The notes beneath the pieces were generated by a model. It ran no database searches. It was given only the letters and a program-made list of their open reading frames with translations, and was not told the origin of the DNA. From the NCBI GenBank assembly GCA_002189035.1, contig NEEC01000011.1, positions 1,178,001-1,242,000 on the forward strand: a DNA stretch of 64,000 nucleotides, written 5' to 3'. Shown in pieces: positions 43,288 to 57,170 of this stretch. Each line of letters opens with the position of its first letter. The first letter of the stretch is position 1. The position numbers and the translations under genes were made by a program. This stretch comes from Utricularia gibba (taxonomy: Eukaryota > Streptophyta > Magnoliopsida > Lamiales > Lentibulariaceae).

Positions 43288-46200
43288 ATGGCGTACACAA
43301 TATTTCAATCAACAAATTTGCCTTCTACTTTTGGCTACAATGGACTGTTTGAGGCATCTACAAAGAACAAAAAGGCTGCGACAGCACTTTTATGCTCAAG
43401 ATCAGCTACTTCTAGAACATGGAGCTTCTGTGGATTGCGTGGAGTTAATGCCTTGGACATGATGGTGCACAAAAGTGGCCAGCCATTGCAGGAAAAAGTA
43501 GCAGCTATTACCTCCACCAGGCCAAGAATAAACTCAAGAATGGCACCACGTGCCATGTTTGAGCGCTTCACTGAGAAGGCCATTAAGGTCATAATGCTTG
43601 CACAAGAGGAGGCAAGGAGACTCGGCCACAATTTTGTTGGAACGGAACAGATCTTGCTAGGACTTGTCGGTGAAGGTACTGGGATTGCGGCTAAGGTTCT
43701 CAAGTCAATGGGAATCAATCTTAAAGATGCGCGAGTTGAGGTTGAGAAGATAATAGGGCGTGGTAGTGGATTTGTTGCTGTGGAGATACCTTTTACTCCT
43801 CGTGCTAAGCGTGTTTTAGAACTGTCACTCGAGGAAGCCCGTCAACTTGGTAATGATTTCATCTTTTTTGGTTCTTTTTTTTCTGTTTGGTATGATTGAA
43901 TTCGTACTTTCAATGATTAAGAAGTAGATTTACTTTCTGATTGTATTCATCGTTGGAGATATGGCTGCAATGACCCGTTTTGTTTTTGCTCTGTTCCTCC
44001 CTGATCTTCACCTTCCTGAATCAGTCACATACAGAATGCCTAGCTTCCTTGATGCTCTTTATATTTCGAATTTTCTCAGGCCACAATTACATTGGGTCTG
44101 AGCACTTGCTGCTGGGATTGCTGCGTGAGGGTGAAGGTGTGGCAGCTCGCGTTCTTGAAAACTTAGGGGCGGATCCTAGCAACATTCGAAACCAGGCACC
44201 TCTGTCTTCTTTTCCCACTGGATAGTGATTCTATTACGTGGGCATATTTTAAACAAGCTTTCTGGCGATCAGGTTATCAGGATGGTGGGCGAAAGTGCTG
44301 AGGCTGTGAGTGCTGGTGTTGGAGGGGAAGCTCAGGCAACAAGATGCCTACCCTTGAAGAGTATGGTACCAATTTGACGAAGTTAGCAGAAGAGGTAGTT
44401 CTTAAATTGTACTTCCTTTTCAAAGATATGAAACTGATCTCCTTATTGGTGATCTTCTCTTTGTTTAGGGCAAGCTGGACCCTGTCGTTGGAAGGCAAGA
44501 ACAAATCGAGCGTGTGACTCAAATTTTGGGAAGGCGTACTAAGAATAACCCTTGCCTCATTGGAGAGCCTGGAGTTGGGAAAACTGCCATTGCAGAGGGA
44601 CTTGCTCAGAGAATTGCCAACGGGGATGTTCCTGAGACTATTGAGGGGAAAAAGGTATTGCTCTAGGCGTTTTTTTTTTTTTTTTGATGATATTGAGGCT
44701 ATTAAGATCTATTTTTCCTATCAAGTGATGGGTATTAGTTAGCCTTTTCTTAACCAATACTTTCTTTCCAAAATTACAGGTTATTACACTTGACATGGGC
44801 CTTCTTGTTGCTGGGACGAAGTATCGTGGCGAATTTGAAGAAAGATTAAAGAAACTGATGGAAGAAATCAAGCAAAGTGACGAAATTATACTGTTTATTG
44901 ATGAGGTTCACACCCTAATTGGTGCTGGAGCTGCCGAGGGAGCCATTGATGCTGCAAACATATTGAAGCCTGCTTTGGCTAGGGGGAGCTACAGGTACCA
45001 TTGATAGACAGTGTTTTTCCTGAATTATTTGTCATGTGTCATGCTAATCTACTATCCTGTGCTTCATTATTTTTTACTTTGATTTACTTCCAGTGCATCG
45101 GGGCAACAACTCTGGATGAATACAGGAAGCATATCGAGAAAGATCCAGCACTGGAAAGAAGGTTCCAGCCTGTGAAAGTCCCTGAACCCACAGTAGATGA
45201 AACCATTCAAATTCTTAAAGGGCTTAGAGAACGTTATGAAATACATCACAAGCTTCGTTACACAGATGAAGCGTTGGTGGCCGCAGCTCAATTGTCTTAC
45301 CAGTATATCAGGTGACAAAAAAACTCATTGCAATTTCATTTGTTGGTGCATATACTTGGTCTCTGTTCCTTTTTTTTTCAGTAGGCAATATTCTTGTTCT
45401 CATTTTGAAATTTTCATTTTTTTGGTTTTCTTTGCTTTAAAAATATTCTCCATTGCTGTGTTTTAGCGACCGTTTTTTGCCTGATAAAGCAATCGATTTG
45501 GTTGATGAAGCTGGTTCCCGAGTTCGACTCCGCCATGCACAGGTACATGCATTCATGTGCAGATGGCAAATGTTATCTTTGCTGCGTTTTTATAGTTTTA
45601 TCTTTTCCTGTGCCAGTTCCCTGAAGAAGCAAGAGAACTGGAGAAAGAGCTTAGACAGATTACCAAGGAGAAAAATGATGCAGTCCGTAGTCAAGACTTT
45701 GAGAAGGTGGTTGGCATCCTTCGCATGCATAAAGATGTTCTGATTCATGAACCTCGGATCTATTTGTGCATTTTCTACTCAGCTTTTGTTGGTAATTGAC
45801 TCTTTGGATATCCAGGCTGGGGAACTTAGAGACCGTGAAATGGATTTGAAAGCGCAAATATCCACTCTTGTGGACAAAAGCAAAGAGATGACCAAAGCAG
45901 AAGATGAAGCAGGCGATGGAGGTCCTGTTGTCACAGAAGTCGATATTCAGCATATTGTCTCTTCTTGGACAGGAATCCCAGTGGAGAAGGTGTCGACCGA
46001 TGAATCTGATCGCCTTCTAAAGATGGAAGACACCCTTCACAGACGGGTCATTGGTCAGGATGAAGCTGTGAAAGCCATTAGTCGTGCAATTCGCAGGGCT
46101 CGCGTGGGGCTTAAGAATCCTAACCGCCCCATTGCGAGCTTCATCTTCTCTGGTCCAACTGGAGTTGGGAAATCTGAACTTGCAAAAGCACTTGCAGCTT

Positions 46201-46997
46201 ACTACTTCGGCTCTGAGGAGGCCATGATCCGGCTTGATATGAGTGAGTTCATGGAGCGTCATACGGTTTCGAAGCTAATAGGGTCGCCACCTGGTTATGT
46301 TGGTTACACAGAAGGTGGACAGCTGACGGAAGCTGTTCGTCGGCGTCCATACACGGTTGTGCTATTTGATGAAATCGAGAAGGCTCATCCCGATGTTTTC
46401 AACATGATGCTTCAGATTCTCGAAGATGGGAGGCTCACGGACAGCAAGGGTAGAACCGTGGATTTCAAGAACACCCTTCTCATCATGACATCGAATGTTG
46501 GAAGCAGCGTCATTGAGAAGGGAGGAAGGCGGATTGGCTTCGACCTCGACTATGATGAGAAGGACAGTAGCTACAACAGGATCAAGAGCTTGGTGACGGA
46601 GGAACTGAAGCAATACTTCCGTCCTGAGTTCTTGAACAGACTGGATGAGATGATCGTCTTCCGGCAGCTGACAAAGCTCGAAGTGAAGGAGATCTCTGAA
46701 ATCATGCTGAAGGAGGTGTTCGACCGGTTAAAATCTAAGGACATTGAACTCCAGGTGACAGAGAGGTTCAAGGACAGAGTGGTGGAGGAGGGATACAACC
46801 CAAGCTACGGTGCCAGGCCTCTCCGGAGGGCCATCATGAGACTCCTGGAGGACAGCATGGCTGAGAAGATGCTGTCTCGGGAAATCAAGGAAGGGGATTC
46901 AGTGATCGTGGATGTGGATTCTGAAGGCAATGTGATAGTCCTGAATGGGAGCAGCGGGACGCCACCCGAGCCCGCACCAGAGCCAATGCTTGTGTAG
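43288..46997 (+). CDS. CLPC: Chloroplast Hsp100/Clp chaperone ClpC (AAA+ ATPase of the Clp protease)
   Basis: Nine coding exons: 43288-43849, 44080-44195, 44273-44394, 44469-44654, 44780-44994, 45094-45311, 45467-45542, 45617-45706, 45816-46997. They total 2767 nt; two added G bases give 922 residues, the usual ClpC length. Order: plastid transit peptide (~1-60, Ser/Thr/Arg-rich), two N-domain repeats ([20 protein letters not shown], then [20 protein letters not shown]), D1 ATPase with GEPGVGKT (about 299) and ILFIDEVH, middle coiled-coil/UVR segment, D2 ATPase with GPTGVGKS (about 642) and [11 protein letters not shown]. ClpC unfolds stromal proteins for ClpPR and associates with the import machinery. 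Frame breaks by one base at the G4 run 44324-44327 (before [13 protein letters not shown]) and at the G5 run 44982-44986 (before ELQ). Intron 2 has a GC donor (CAG|GCACCT). The upstream ATG at 43243 lies in the leader intron. Confidence 0.96.
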
Positions 46998-47239
46998 GGT
47001 AGGAGGGTGCAAGCACCCGAGGTTCGTGGGCCGCATTTATTTAGGCAGATGCCACCTGATACGTGGTTACCAACATTTCCTCTGGGGTTGTACTCTCTGT
47101 ATCACTATCTGTATTTGTATTTTAGCGGGTGCAGTAGAGCGAGACCAGGTGCTTTTCTTTAAAAAAACATGAAGATTTTGGTTATGGGGGTGCATGGTTA
47201 TAAAAACCATATTAATTTTATTTGCAAAGATTGACACCA

Positions 47240-47311
47240 GTCGTTGTAGTATAGTGGTAAGTATACCTGCCTGTCACGCAGGTGACCCGGGTTCGATCCC
47301 CGGCAACGGCG
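47240..47311 (+). tRNA. trnD-GUC: tRNA-Asp (anticodon GTC)
   Basis: 72 nt. Acceptor stem GTCGTTG (47240-47246) pairs, with one G-T pair, with CAACGGC (47304-47310), discriminator G. Anticodon stem CCTGC/GCAGG encloses CTGTCAC with GTC at 47273-47275. T arm contains GGTTCGATCCC (B box) and the D arm AGTATAGTGGTAAGTAT (A box). No intron and no encoded CCA, as for a nuclear eukaryotic tRNA. Confidence 0.97.
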
Positions 47312-47317
47312 TACTTA

Positions 47318-48322: not shown

Positions 48323-48648
48323 TGACAGTTTATGAGGTACAATATCTCATCTTCAAATCGTTGACATTAGAACAAATGTCATATGTTGAAAAAAAAATGT
48401 TGTAAAGCCACAAAGTAGATTCAAAAGTTATTACCCAGTATAGCAAGTTCAATGGATATTTATAAACAACAAACTATCCACTAGTTGACCATTGAGAAAG
48501 AGTTTAGTGGGCTTCAATTGATCGATCTAATTGAGTTTTCCAGAGTAATGTTGAGTACTGGCATTTGATCAATCCAACTATTCTTCTACTTCATTCTTGT
48601 TACATCTTTAGGAGGAACTTGTACATGATTACAAAGCAAAACCCTTCA
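48323..48648 (-). mobile_element. 3' LTR of the outer copia element
   Basis: 326 bp, TGACAGTTTATG...AACCCTTCA. It aligns with 56649-56973 through blocks such as GTAGATTCAAAAGT, TAGTTGACCATT, GAGTTTAGTG and CCAACTATTCTTC. The flank ATGAT (48318-48322) matches TTGAT after the other LTR at 4 of 5 positions. Confidence 0.8.
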
Positions 48649-49111
48649 TACTCAATCATGGATGTAGCATAGTTAAACACGCTCCCTTGCTATGAAGTGT
48701 TGGTGTAGGGCATTGTTTCATTCCAACTTTATCTCTCAAATTCATCAATGTGAATACGCTTGAGTGCATGGTAGCAGACTCTGATATACTTACTTTTTCC
48801 GAATTGAGTTGGGTTTTCTCCTAAGTCAATTGCAAATTTGTTGACAATCCATAGGGTTGTCACTTTATTGATTGATATATCAAGATCTTCTAATATTTTC
48901 TACAACCATATTACATGTTTAACAACTTCAACTCCAATTATATATTCTTGGATGAGAGTGCAACAACGTCTTGTTTCCTAGAAGCCCAACTAGATGTCCT
49001 ACACCCAAATGTAAACAAATATCGAATCATGCTCTTTGAGTTCTCAATCCTTCCTACATAATATGAGTCAATAAAACCCATTAGATTTATACTTATATCT
49101 TTCTTGAAAGC

Positions 49112-49130
49112 AAATCCATAATCATTGGTT
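49112..49130. repeat. 19-bp direct repeat, left copy, flanking the nested copia
   Basis: AAATCCATAATCATTGGTT, part of the outer element's RNase H, is repeated exactly at 53468-53486. The two copies bracket the nested element and behave as a long target-site duplication. Confidence 0.85.
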
Positions 49131-52100
49131 GACTTGAGACTCGATATTCAACAAGAAAGTCCATGTGCTCCTTGATAAGTCATCAACCACTCTTAAAAAA
49201 TATTTGGATCCTTGAAGTGTGACAACATTATATAATCCCCATAAATCACAGTGTATAAGATGGAAAAGGCACAATGAAATCGAATGACTTGGAAAAAAGG
49301 CTAATCTATGAAACTTGACGAATTCACATATATCACATGGTTGTCCAGAGAGACTACAACCAACTATAAAATGTTTTGCCTTATTTTCATATGGATGTCT
49401 CAAACGACAATGTCATAAAAGCGTAAAATTTAAACCATTCACAGAGGCACAAAACAGAGATAATTTCGACCATTTATGATTTACCAAATTACTCAACGCC
49501 AAGGGATCAGGATGAAATGGAGCCTTTTATGTAGCAGCAAGGAAATGAAGCCACCAAGATTCACTATCCAACATATATAAGCCATCACGAATATGTCCAA
49601 CAGCTAGTAATTTATGGGAGACTTGGTCCTGCATCACCCAATGATTATTGTATAGATTAAAAAGGACATTCATATCCTTCAGCATATACCTCACGAATAG
49701 AAGATTAAATATAAAGTTGTGAACGAATAGAACATTGGATAAATGCATATCATTCTTAAGTGAAACATTTCAAAGACTCTTAACCCGTATAGATAAACCA
49801 TTTGGTAAAGACACAGTGACACAGTCAACAACACCTATAACTTGAAAATTGTGCATGAAGCATGTGATATGAGTAGTGTCTACAGAGTCAATAACCCATT
49901 CCCAAGGTTCACAACTAAAAGACAGATCAATTTTGCTAGTCATCAATAATTCAGAATGTAAAATACCTACAAAGTGGTGGGTCATATTGGACATATGGAC
50001 TTGAGAATCATAGCCGGTGAAAGATGATGGCAAGTACAATTGTCAAGGTCCTTGATTTGCAAGAAGCTGCTCAACTCTTGTTGTATGATGTGGAGGGAAG
50101 TTTCAAAGCCAATAAAAAGCATATATGTGTCATTCAATTGTGTGTCCATGCAATGTGCCATGGAATGAGAAGTCATTCTATGATAGTATTGAGCCACCAT
50201 GTTCCTATTTGTAGAAATACCCATCAAAACTTGAGTGGATTGAGAGTAACAACCAGCATGAGTGTAATGTGGAGAGTAGCCATCAATGGGAGTAGAGGTT
50301 TGATGATGGAAAGGGACACCGAAAGATGTATTAGTCTTCTTTTTGTTCCACTATGATGGGTAATTCCCAATGAGGAGATAATGATTTTTACACAAGTATT
50401 CCTACTTCTTACAATAGTCATAGTAACGACCATCTTTCTTTTTCACATTTCCTGTAAATGAGTTATTCATAGAGACATAAAATGCAGATTCATCATGTCT
50501 CCCATCATGTGACTTAGCACTCATGGCAGCATTTGCAAATATGTCTAATGGTTTCTCAATGGTAAGGCCATTCATAACAATAATTTGATTTTTCGTCAAC
50601 TCAAACTTCTCACTCAAACCACGTAAAAAGTGAATCAACTTAGTAGGAACAAAGATTTTATCAAAAGGAATAACTGTCTCGCAAGAATCACATTTCATCT
50701 TAGGAGTAACGATATCAAGATCTTTCCATAAACCATTCAATCTAGTATAATAATCAGCAATGGTCATATCACCTTACTTCAAATGATAAATGCCATGCAG
50801 GAGTTGATAAAGCAAACTATTATTAAGATATCCATGATGATTTTGCGAGGTAATCCACAATTCTTGTGCGCACAAAGCACCACTAAAGCTTGCAACCAAT
50901 GATTTTGAAATAGAACTGAGTATCCACAATTAAATCATGCAATCATTAAAAATCCATAAATTGTAACCAGGATTAATGACAAGAGACCAAGAAATATCTC
51001 CATTGATAAAACCTAAATTATTCTTTGACCCTAAAGCCAATATGGCAATTTCTTCTCCATTCAAAATAAATCATAATTGTGAGAGGAGAATTCACAAGTG
51101 CAATGTTAGGATGTTCAAAACCACTCATAACCAATGGATTTGATTGTTCTAAAATAATAGGAAAACCTAATTCTGGTCCTTACAAGGTTTCATCACTCGA
51201 TGTCATTTCTACACGTAGCAATTGCTCACCAACAAGTCGGTTCTTTCTTTTGAGATGTCTCCACGCTCACTACACCATGAACAATTACGCTACCAGCGTT
51301 GAGAGTTGGCCAAATGGAAGGAAACATAAGGTAGTTCCATGAACGGTGAATCGCAAAAGCAAAAAAAAAAAAAAACAACGTTCATGCACATTTATGCATG
51401 TGATAAATTGTGCAGTACAACTAGAAGTGTAGAAGTTGTACTGCATAATAGTAATAACATTCGTTCTTCCTTCCAAAGTTCCAATGTCTATTCAACAAAA
51501 TGCTGCTGCTTCGTTCATCATTGAGTTCCAGGTGGAGAGCATAATCCAAGTTATCTAATAATGTTTTGAAGGGTAGAAGACATCCATCAATTGCTTATTG
51601 GATGGGAACTGAGGAATATGAAATCCTCATTTGTATTTCTCCCGTACAATATAGCAATCTATTTCAATATGTTTGGTCCGTTCATGAAATACCAAATTAG
51701 TAGTAATGTGAATAGTAGATTTTTTGTCACACCAAAGAGGAATCATGGCCAAGCTACGATATTCTGCCTTTGCTGAATACTTTGACACTATGCCTTGCTT
51801 TTTTGTTTTCCAGGAGATCAAACATCCTCCTAACATGACACAAAAACTTGTGATAGATTTCTGGGTGAGGGAACAAGCTCCCCAATCCAAATCACAATAT
51901 CTATCGAATAGAATGAGTTCCCTTGTTGGATAGAGAAGACCATGAAAAATGAAGTTAACAAGATAGGCAACAATGTATTTAGCAGCAAGCCAATGCTCAA
52001 GAGTCGGTGCATGCATGAATTGAGACAACTGCTGAACTTAAAAGACAATATCTAGATGCATAAAACTCAAATAGAGCAGTCGACCAATAAGAGCCTAGTA

Positions 52101-53467
52101 TTCATTTGAAGAGAATAAGATCTCAATATAAGATGATGGCCCAATATCTTTAATACTAAATTGAGCATGTAAAGCTTGTTTCAATTTGTTGATGGCAAGG
52201 AGAGAAGGACCAACTAGGAGAATGTCATCACCATAAACCGCTAAAGCAAGAAACGTGGTTGCAGTTTTCTTCATAAAGAGACATGAATCGGATAAGAATT
52301 GTTTAAAATACAATGAGCTAAGAAAACCATTGTCTACCTACTTGCTTTAAAACATAAAGTGATTGTTTGAACTTGCATACCTAACCGGCGTTTACATGAT
52401 ATACCGGAGGTGGTTCCATGGAAATGTCTTCGTCAATGTGATCGTGGTGGAAAGCACTATTAATATCTATTTGGTGTAGATGCCAATCCGGTTTCGCCGT
52501 CAGAGCAAGCAAGATTTGTATGGTAGTAATCTTGGTCAAAGGCGCAAAGCGCATAGTGAAGTCCACACCTTCCACCTAAGTGTATCTTTTAGCCACAAGG
52601 CATGCCTTATATCTAGAATGATACCGTTAGGATGCTTTTTGATTTTGAAGATCCATTTGCAACCAACAGTCTTTTTTCTAGAAGGTAGTGTCGTCGTTAT
52701 CCAAGTGTGGTTATCCACCAATGATTGAATCTCAAGAGTCATGGCATCTTGCCACACCTGTATCTCTTTAGCATGCTCATAAGTAGGGGTTCCTTCAACA
52801 TGAAGACTTGAATGGGGTTTGGAATCCTTAACCTTTAATAATGCAGTTTGGAGTGCAACATAATCCAGTTTCCAATATAGAGCTCATCGTATTCTAGTGC
52901 TCCTTTGGATGAGATCATTACTCATGCTAGGATGCTCTCTCAAAGACTACTGGTCTGCGTCATTACCTATAGCATGCTCATTGGAAAAATGGTGACCTGA
53001 AGTGGGCACACAATTTTCTAATTATTGAGACTTCATAGTAAGTGTGCCACTAGAATGCTCACCACTAGTTTCATAACCTACATAAATAACGTTTTCAAGA
53101 CTAGCAATAGCTTGAGGACCTGCAGCAATAATGGAAGGATGGAGATAGTCAGCATCATAATGGTCATCTAGACCATTGAAATTGTCATCAAGATCACAGT
53201 TGTCATTATCAGTTAAGAATGACAAAACAATATCAAAATTCTGAATGTAATCATCAACTCCCTTCCAAGGGAAAATATGCTCATAAAACTTGACATCCCT
53301 ATTAATAAAGATTTCCTTTGTAGTTAAATCATAACTCTTATAGTCTTAATGATCAATGGAATAACCCACAAAAATGCATTTTCTGGTACATGGTGTCAAT
53401 TTATCTACTTGTGGGTTAGAGACATCTGAGTAGCACAAACAACCAAAAACACATTAGTGATATATCA
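49131..53467 (-). mobile_element. Nested, circularly permuted copia element (one LTR)
   Basis: From the right end on the minus strand: integrase C-part (VFGCLCYSDVS near 53435, then CIFVGYSIDH), RT (KKTVGCKWIFKIKKHPNG near 52670; catalytic box reads VYGDDIL near 52230), RNase H (51627-52028, GGCLISWKTKKQ and HERTKHIEIDC), a single LTR (about 51297-51497), gag (50402-50767, DYYTRLNGLWKDLD), zinc-knuckle start CKK, protease (WVIDS near 49895), GAG-pre-integrase, integrase N-part (GSKYFLRVVDDLSRSTW) ending at 49131. It therefore starts and ends inside integrase, with about 130 residues of integrase missing between the break points. Both halves resemble one Tork/RE-type lineage. Stops make it inactive. 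Confidence 0.8.
51297..51497 (-). mobile_element. Single LTR of the nested copia element
   Basis: Between the RNase H end and gag lies about 200 bp with (T/C)GTTGA...TCAACA ends. Next to its left end the minus strand reads TGGTAGCG, a possible diverged PBS. No second copy exists on either side of the nested element. Exact ends are tentative. Confidence 0.5.
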
Positions 53468-53486
53468 AAATCCATAATCATTGGTT
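53468..53486. repeat. 19-bp direct repeat, right copy, flanking the nested copia
   Basis: Identical to 49112-49130. Sequence on its right continues the outer element's RNase H upstream half. Confidence 0.85.
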
Positions 53487-56400
53487 ATATTGAGATACTT
53501 TATGACTTGTTTTATAGCATCCATGCGTGTCTTGTGAGATTTTCTCAAATACCTAGAAAAATAGCTCATAAAAGACAGATATTAGGTCTAGTAGTAGATA
53601 AATATATAAGTGAATTAATCATACTATTTAATGTTTTTTCAACCACAATGTCTTCATCATTTGCTAGATCAGGTTGCAAGTAGACTAGTCGACTTTGCAT
53701 TGCTCAAATTATACTTCTTGATGATGTCTACCGTATATTTTTTTTTGGCTCAAGTAATTGTATTTTGATGAATGCTTAATCTCTAATCCAAGAAATTAGT
53801 CCATCATTCCCAAATCAGTCATTTCAAATATAGTCATAACTTTTTTTCTTGTCACAATAGGTGATTGTTGTTGCTTGTAAAGAGTAAGTCATTTACATAT
53901 AGTGATACAATGAAGTATGCTCCTTCCTTCATCAGTGTACATAGAATTGTGTCATTTTAGCTCCTTTGAAAATCCCTAGATTAAAATTGTGAAACAATTC
54001 TAGTATACCAAGCACGTGATGTTTGTTTAAGGCCATACAAGGCTTTATGGAGCAAAAGGACTTTTCTTTTCTATCCTATTTAACAAAGCTTGGTGGTTAT
54101 TGAATGTATACTTCTTCTTTTAATTTTCAATTTAAGAAAGTACTTTTAACATTTGAATGAAATATATCCTAATGATTGCAAGCCACTAAATCAATTAGCA
54201 GCTTTATGGTGTACAAGCATGCAATAGGAGTAAAGGTGTCATTGAAGTCAATTCTAACTACTTGTGAATACCCTTGAACAATCGAGCGAGCTTTCAACTT
54301 GTTGACAATTCCGTCTAGATTTGATTTGGTGTGAAAAGTCCACTATTATCTTCCAGTTGTTAGGTTTGAGAATTAATTTCCATGTCTCATTCTTTTCAAT
54401 GGACAGAATTTTAGATTTCATTGCTACTTTGTAATTAGGATCTTCTTAGGCTACATCCTAAAGTGCTGGTTCTTTTGCAGATAAGCATTTCGCATATATC
54501 TTGCTTATATCTCTATAACCCTCTACAAGTACTTCCCCATTGTTTTATATCATTTTCAGGAGGCTCTACAGGTTCAATTTCAACTTTCTGCTTAACTTGT
54601 CCAAGTTGTTGCTCCTCATCCAATTGAGCATCATCAGTAGTTTTAAAGGATTCTTTAAATATGTCATTCCATGAGTATGAGGTAGGAATAGTTTCAAAAG
54701 TCCGATCCCAACATTTTTTCTCATCTACAAGAACATCTTTGCTCAAAACTATTTTCTATGTTTCCAGATCCAACACTCTATATGTCTTTGAGATACTACT
54801 ATAACCCAAGAAGATTCCTTTTTCAGCCAATTTATCAAGTTTTCCTTGTCTCTTCTCTTTTGGAACATATATAAAACAAAGACTCCCAAAGACTATCAAC
54901 TGATTTACTTGATAGCACATCGATTCACAAGGTAAATCAAGGTATTTACTGCTTCATCTCAGAAGTAAATTGGTAGGCTTTTCTAAAAAAGCAGACATCT
55001 AGTCATGTTTATAACTATTCGGTTTTTTCTTTTCAAAGTCCCATTTTGATGAGGTGTGTACGGTGCTATAAGTTCATGCGCTATGCCCTGGGATATACAT
55101 AGTGTAACTAGCTCGATTGGTGAGTATTCAACTCTATTGTCTATTCTTATCTTAAGAATTTTTTCCATATTTTCATTTTCCATTATAGCCTTGAACTACT
55201 TGAAGTAGTTGAGAATCTGTGATCTATGGTGCAAAAGAAATATCAAATTATATTTAGTGAAATCATTAATAATTAACAGAAAATAATGGTTACCACTCAA
55301 CGTTTTATAGCTCATTGGTCTACACACATTTGAATGTACCAATTCCAGTCTTTTAGTGTTTTTCCAAGTTCATGTGTCAAAGGGAAATTTGTTTATTTTT
55401 CCTAACTGACAAATTAAACATATTTATTAGTGTTTCAATTTAGAGATTCCTTCAATTAGATTGTTTCTCTTCACGTTGAGGAGATTTTTCTGGTAAATAT
55501 TCCCGAACCCTTAATGCCACATATTTTCCATCGTTAGGCTACTCAAGCATGTATCTTTCCTAGTCTCAATGACAAATGTGATAGGATATGCAATTTATTT
55601 GTATAGTAAATATCTTAATCTTGTAGTTGTCCATTGCTAATAAGGTTATGGTGAGCTCTTGGAACAAGGAGGGGTTTTAGGGTTTTGAAGCAGGTGATTT
55701 CATATATCAAGTGATTATTGTAGCCACTATCTGAATACCGGTGTTTATCTTTTGTAATTGATTTTTCAACGGCAGATAAGCTAGCATGAGTTTTAGTAAC
55801 AACAAGAACCATATTACTCATATTTTGTGAAAGTTCATAAATCTCAACTACAGTCAATAATTTTTAGCTTTCTATTTTTCAAGCAAACCATCTCTTTGTC
55901 CTGTAACTTAATAGTGTATGCATATGTTCCAAGAATTCTAGAAGCAATCTTTTCTTCATGTTTCTCTTGCTCTTCAAATATGGTTATCCTTTGTACTTCA
56001 TCTCTCATGGTATTTAATAATTCTGAAGTTTGTTAGGCTTCTTGTGATGGGGCTGAATTTTGAGGGCATGCTTGTACATATTGTGTTGCTAACCCTCTTA
56101 TCTTCTACTATTCCTCTCAACAACTTGATCTTGCTTCTAGGTTTGTACGAGTTATCCATGAATGATTGAATAGAATCTAAGTTTGACATTTTCACCAAGT
56201 CGAATTCCTTCTAAAGATTCAACCTTTCTGCTTTCCATGAGTTTTTAATTTCAGAAAATTGTGTCTCAAGTATTTTCCATGCTTCTCTAACTATTTCATA
56301 GCTTATTACCATCAGGAAGACGTCATCGTTGAGAGAGCCATGCATAGGAGCAAGTGCTTGAGAGTTAATCATTGTTTCTTCTTTTGTGAATTCTCTAGAT

Positions 56401-56648
56401 TTTCCATCATTATCTATTGGTGAGTTTTTAGTCACTGTGTCATATAGACCCAAAGCTTGCATGTTTCACTTTATTTTTTCTACTCAGATAAGGTAATTTT
56501 TTCCATCCAATTGAGATGGTTGTAATGATATGAAGTTGTTGGTTTTGTTATTCATTTTTTTCCTACATGGTTAGTGAGGTAATGGTATATATGTGAGGTA
56601 GCGTGTTGTGTTATACTTGATTCATTAATTGAAATCGCTTTGATACCA

Positions 56649-56973
56649 TGACAACGTTTATGCCATCGAAATAAAAGATTGATGAATTGAAGAAACTTGG
56701 AATGAGAACAAAGATCAGATGTTGAAGAAAATATTGTAAAAGCACATAGTAGATTCAAAAGTCATTACCCTGCAAAACAAGTTCACTGGGTATTTAAAAA
56801 CAACAAATTAGCCATTAGTTGACCATTAAAATAGAGTTTAGTGAGCTTTAATTAGTTGCTCTGATTGAGCTTTCCACAATAATGTTGATTTGGTCAGTCC
56901 AACTATTCTTCCACTTCATAATTGTTATATCTTCAGGAAGAGCTCATACATGGCAGCAGGGCGAAACCCTTCA
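56649..56973 (-). mobile_element. 5' LTR of the outer copia element
   Basis: 325 bp, TGACAACGTTTATG...AACCCTTCA, immediately adjoining the PBS complement GCTTTGATACCA. It matches the LTR at 48323-48648. Confidence 0.8.
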
Positions 56974-57170
56974 TTGATAATCTCGAATAGTAAATCTTTT
57001 CTCCTAATCTTCTCATTCAACAAGTTTTCAATGACCAGTCACGTTTCCATAGCATCTTTGGTTCAATTATTTAAGGATAGAATTATAGTGTTTTAGTAAT
57101 CACTTCAAGTCCCAAGAAAAAGCAAGCCCTAAACTTAATCGTCAAAAATCAATTTCACAGCATTCAATTA
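56974..57170. other. Short spacer, repeat-derived
   Basis: No feature recognised between the outer copia element and the gag remnant to its right. Confidence 0.4.

Follow-up and report, generated by a model that had tools for sequence, protein, structure and literature searches.

The window analysed here is a 64,000-nucleotide stretch of the Utricularia gibba genome (C255:1178001-1242000 in the searched assembly of 100 Mb and 516 contigs). It contains a nest of two copia-type retrotransposons, in which an insert on the minus strand (about 49,136-53,466) lies within a second, outer copia element (Table 1). Just to the left of the nest are a gene for a Clp-type ATPase on the plus strand (44000-47000) and a tRNA-like sequence with a GTC anticodon, identified by eye (47241-47312).

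An earlier reading of the window, made from the sequence only (hereafter the sequence-only reading), had proposed that the outer element resumes on both sides of the insert within its RNase H region. The resumption holds. In the same assembly, the outer element is uninterrupted at the insertion site in eight further copies, and because these run straight through it, no target DNA was lost. The position needs correction: in our reading of the alignment, the insertion site appears to be the boundary between reverse transcriptase (RT) and RNase H, at the motif IKYLN-TNDYGFAFKK, and not well within RNase H.

Table 1 Features of the nested copia elements (window coordinates; C244 and C451 are other contigs of the assembly)
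Feature	Position	Strand	Evidence
Outer copia, 3' LTR	48361-48649	-	289 bp aligned to 56697-56974, 78% identity
Outer copia, RNase H side of the interrupted body	48650-49111	-	Matches C451:3902831-3903194 and other outer copies
Left target-duplication copy	49112-49139		49112-49130 exact; 49131-49135 outer-like; 49136-49139 (GAGA) common to the insert; outer relatives GTTGA(A/G)TTGAG
Insert, integrase N-part and pre-integrase, with broken end in the integrase core	49136-49412	-	84% to C244:172549 onwards; homologous C244 frame has gag_pre-integrs and rve
Insert, protease, gag and leader	49413-51277	-	80-84% to C244:172826-174629
Insert, single internal LTR (TG...CA, 182 bp)	51278-51459	-	Aligned to C244 LTRs 169070-169265 and 174630-174793 + 175482-175516
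Insert, polypurine-tract region and RNase H	51460-52037	-	84-85% to C244:169348-169678
Insert, reverse transcriptase	52095-52883	-	RVT_2 1.2e-8 in 52095-52337; 83-85% to C244
Insert, integrase C-part (SH3-like), with second broken end	53022-53466	-	SH3_retrovirus 9.5e-5; 81-83% to C244:171557-172185
Right target-duplication copy	53468-53495		25/28 identical to left copy
Outer copia, RT, integrase and gag	53496-56696	-	Eight outer relatives run on unbroken from the left side; rve-like 0.03, gag_2 3.8e-4
Outer copia, 5' LTR	56697-56974	-	LTR pair match with 48361-48649

Domain order of the insert and its canonical relative

The insert reads integrase C-part, RT, RNase H, one 182-bp LTR, gag, protease and integrase N-part, and Pfam profiles run on the window place RVT_2 and SH3_retrovirus at the permuted positions. 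Used as a query against the whole assembly, the insert matched itself and one clear relative, C244:169,070-175,516, in five pieces. This relative is canonical in order and has two LTRs (169070-169265 and 174630-175516), which start with TG and end with CA, and a 5-bp target duplication, AAGGC. Along the plus strand it comprises LTR, RNase H, RT, integrase C-part, integrase N-part, protease, gag and LTR, the element itself reading on the minus strand. Pfam identifies gag_3, gag_pre-integrase, rve, SH3-like and RVT_2 in canonical order, so that C244 has the gag-protease-integrase-RT-RNase H arrangement of copia, with integrase ahead of RT, and the insert has the same arrangement rotated. The 5' LTR of C244 is itself split by a 685-bp palindromic, MITE-like insert (C244:174794-175478; L046:7295-7979).

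Alignment of the insert to this full-length relative matches all coding blocks in swapped order. Window 49136-51429 (integrase N-part, protease, gag and LTR) corresponds to C244:172549-174779, and window 51278-53464 (LTR, RNase H, RT and integrase C-part) corresponds to C244:169070-172185. The swapped blocks and the Pfam positions confirm the sequence-only reading in its claim of a rotated order with both ends in integrase. The identity to C244 is 84.2% for the integrase N-part and protease, 83.5% for gag, 84.7% for RNase H, 85.1% for RT, and 82.8% for the start of RT and the integrase C-part; the LTR is more diverged than these coding blocks, at 70-75%. An origin of the gag half and the RT half from two different families, against which the earlier reading had wished its proposal to be checked, was rejected, because both halves are equally diverged from C244.

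The two blocks leave out 363 bp of the integrase core (C244:172186-172548), present in C244 and missing from the insert, in agreement with the loss of about 0.4 kb estimated earlier. The insert amounts to about 92% of one unit; on a circular map its ends, 363 bp apart, almost meet. The match of all coding blocks to C244 at similar identity and in swapped order, together with this gap, shows that the insert comes from a single family and is a circular permutation of it, with sequence trimmed away where it was opened. Its one LTR, at 51278-51459 alone and mid-element as first described, sits between the gag and leader side and the RNase H side, with normal flanks. Between the LTR and the RNase H side, about 50 extra bases (51460-51512) with a second polypurine-like stretch are not found in C244.

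Target duplication and junctions

The target is complete and bracketed by a long duplication. The 19-mers at 49112-49130 and 53468-53486 are identical; among simulated pairs of 50-mers of local composition, the longest common match in 2000 trials was 14 bases. Past the 19-mer, the sequence is GTTGA(A or G)T... in the eight outer relatives, GTTGACTTGAGA in the left copy and GTTATATTGAGA in the right copy. Because the left copy agrees with the outer relatives to 49135, and the GAGA at 49136-49139 fits both the outer element and the insert, the duplication spans 24-28 bp, is identical at 25 of 28 positions and adjoins integrase sequence. The 19-bp duplication described previously is therefore correct as an exact match and too short as a full length, and after the comparison with the outer relatives an exact 19 bp was replaced by 24-28 bp as the whole stagger. 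The 4-bp GAGA overlap between duplication and insert could be a microhomology.

The insert thus has the features of a double-strand-break patch, being bracketed by duplicated target without target loss. The right junction contains one extra A (53467), which re-insertion of a circle, as set out below, does not account for. Searches of the whole assembly with each junction, a check suggested by the sequence-only reading, found both at this locus only. The outer LTRs differ by 22%, the duplication copies at 3 of 28 positions and the C244 LTRs by 14%; these values are consistent with the outer copia having inserted first and the insert later, and fix the insert's own age only poorly. The insert is a single old event.

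Origin of the insert

We consider it probable that the insert is a one-LTR circle that was broken open within integrase and then sealed by end joining into a double-strand break with staggered ends. A copia element of a low-copy family would have formed, or been excised as, a double-stranded one-LTR circle. A cut in its integrase gene would then have opened this circle, with trimming of about 363 bp. Once linear, the piece would have been joined into a break with an overhang of about 24-28 nt in the older copia, where fill-in of the stagger would have produced the long target duplication, and the 4-bp GAGA microhomology may have aided one join. A one-LTR circle, trimming and staggered-break joining would together explain every feature, the extra A aside, in a single event. 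The near-meeting of the ends on the circular map is as expected of an opened circle, and the insert has what a re-integrated one-LTR circle should show: a rotated body with nearly meeting ends, and a single LTR between the leader and RNase H sides. Three parts of this account are inferred: a free circle, and not a tandem array, as the donor, the staggering of the break, and its closure by end joining. The capture of a circle had been proposed in the sequence-only reading and gains support here, with its staggered-break version favoured. A two-LTR circle was rejected as the donor, as just one 182-bp LTR lies between the gag and RNase H sides. The sole related copy left in the assembly, C244, is about 16% diverged, and the donor is therefore not identifiable.

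Ordinary copia integration is excluded by the lack of terminal LTRs, by the ends lying in integrase and by a duplication of 24-28 bp as against about 5 bp. The main rival to a circle is copying from a tandem array, in which a break is repaired by template-switching synthesis along a head-to-tail LTR-body-LTR-body-LTR arrangement, or a fragment of an array or of tandem cDNA is captured. A segment copied from an array would have an identical internal order, and tandem elements with a shared LTR are common in plant genomes (PMC11899658). Such tandems resemble the insert in the body-LTR-body order of their middle, but they have terminal LTRs and a 5-bp duplication, whereas the insert has no terminal LTRs and a long duplication. 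Moreover, nothing in this model stops the copy at a length just under one unit (about 92%), and the assembly contains no tandem of the insert family and only one other element, C244, so that we regard array copying as unlikely.

The remaining explanations are far less probable still. Insertion by LINE-type machinery, raised in the sequence-only reading, would give a long duplication, and it is general knowledge that duplications of this length are usual in LINE-mediated insertions; however, its hallmarks were not found, there being no poly(A) tract at either insert end and no TT/AAAA-like nick context at the site, and the transcript of an LTR element would not be permuted in this way. This route is very improbable. 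We give as little credence to an assembly error in which parts of two elements were fused. Repeats are nested in this region, which is known here from the assembly, but assemblers need long identical overlaps, and the closest relatives differ by roughly 10% or more near the joins; the duplication copies have diverged at 3 of 28 positions and the junctions are single-copy. From these alignments, the nearest relatives appear too diverged to have caused a false join at the junctions. Nested and broken elements are common, which speaks for two independent insertions or for an ordinary one that was rearranged, yet one duplication brackets the whole insert, the two halves meet at one LTR with equal divergence, and an outer duplication of 24-28 bp cannot arise through deletions in a canonical copy. 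Both of these schemes are already contradicted by the data and have hardly any likelihood left.

Comparison with known systems and other copies in the assembly

In the human genome, a rotated order has served as the signature by which re-integrated circles are recognised (Takahashi and Innan 2020, PMC7188851), a study that also cites circular translocations in cattle. The human duplications derived from extrachromosomal circular DNA and, as far as they are described there, the cattle translocations are like the insert in that a fragment was circularised, cut elsewhere and re-inserted rotated; they are duplications of chromosomal DNA, whereas the insert is a proposed one-LTR retrotransposon circle in a plant. 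One-LTR circles are known to form from LTR elements, and those of Ty elements likewise have one LTR and one body (PMC4751563). The Ty circles were described as free, with re-entry proposed by LTR homology, whereas the insert is joined away from the LTR and without long homology.

In yeast, retrotransposon DNA is taken up at double-strand breaks (Moore and Haber; Teng et al., as cited in PMC10802722), and this capture, as summarised there, shares with our proposal for the insert the integrase-independent uptake of retrotransposon DNA by end joining; the yeast cases cited involve mostly short fragments at induced breaks, whereas the insert is an almost complete unit, permuted, and lies in a natural genome. 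In rice, asymmetric or staggered nicks with end joining have been proposed to explain insertions that have duplications at their flanks (Vaughn and Bennetzen, as reviewed in PMC7407515). These patch-mediated insertions have a short bracketing duplication and the same kind of explanation, but the inserts reported in that review are 10-1000 bp long, as against 4.3 kb of a mobile element here.

In a survey for other rotated copies, the best 150 of several hundred RVT_2 and gag candidates were scored, setting 150 RVT_2 matches against 127 of 150 gag matches and leaving out the gag matches in arrays on C477, C39, C15 and C513. Gag lay 1.5-6 kb upstream, as expected, in 71 of the best 150 RT matches, and downstream within 6 kb in six; four of these six also had an upstream gag (neighbouring or tandem copies). 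Of the two others, the RT match at C4:2033374 belongs to a dense cluster of copies. At C1:4095005 (C1:4095005-4097549), gag lies about 2 kb downstream of RT on the same strand, at 4097010, with no upstream gag and no integrase or pre-integrase nearby among the matches listed; this locus is possibly a second rotated copy or two broken neighbours, and is a lead only. The gag matches at C477:104030-125559 and 178921-191940, and also on C39, C15 and C513, are spaced near-regularly at about 3.1 kb and 3.8-5.3 kb; with no RT among the matches listed, they resemble a tandem array of either a gag-only element or a satellite. At C255:652880-660466, two successive copia copies of the same orientation lie about 6 kb apart, possibly as a tandem sharing an LTR.

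The re-integration of circles is in itself already known, for other kinds of DNA and in other organisms (yeast, cattle and human), whereas in plants retrotransposon circles are usually called a dead end (PMC10462705). Searches with partial coverage of the literature brought up no account of a plant copia fossil with rotated order and one LTR, which is weak evidence of novelty. A clean fossil of this kind, with a relative in canonical order, sister copies whose target is intact and a duplication of measured length, suggests that circle DNA can persist in the germ line, and the combination of rotated order, one LTR and long duplication provides a simple signature for a genome-wide census. Plant retrotransposon circles may even re-enter chromosomes through break repair often enough to constitute a second, integrase-independent route of spread, a prospect that we regard as unlikely, and whose rotated copies would be recognisable and countable in genome sequences.
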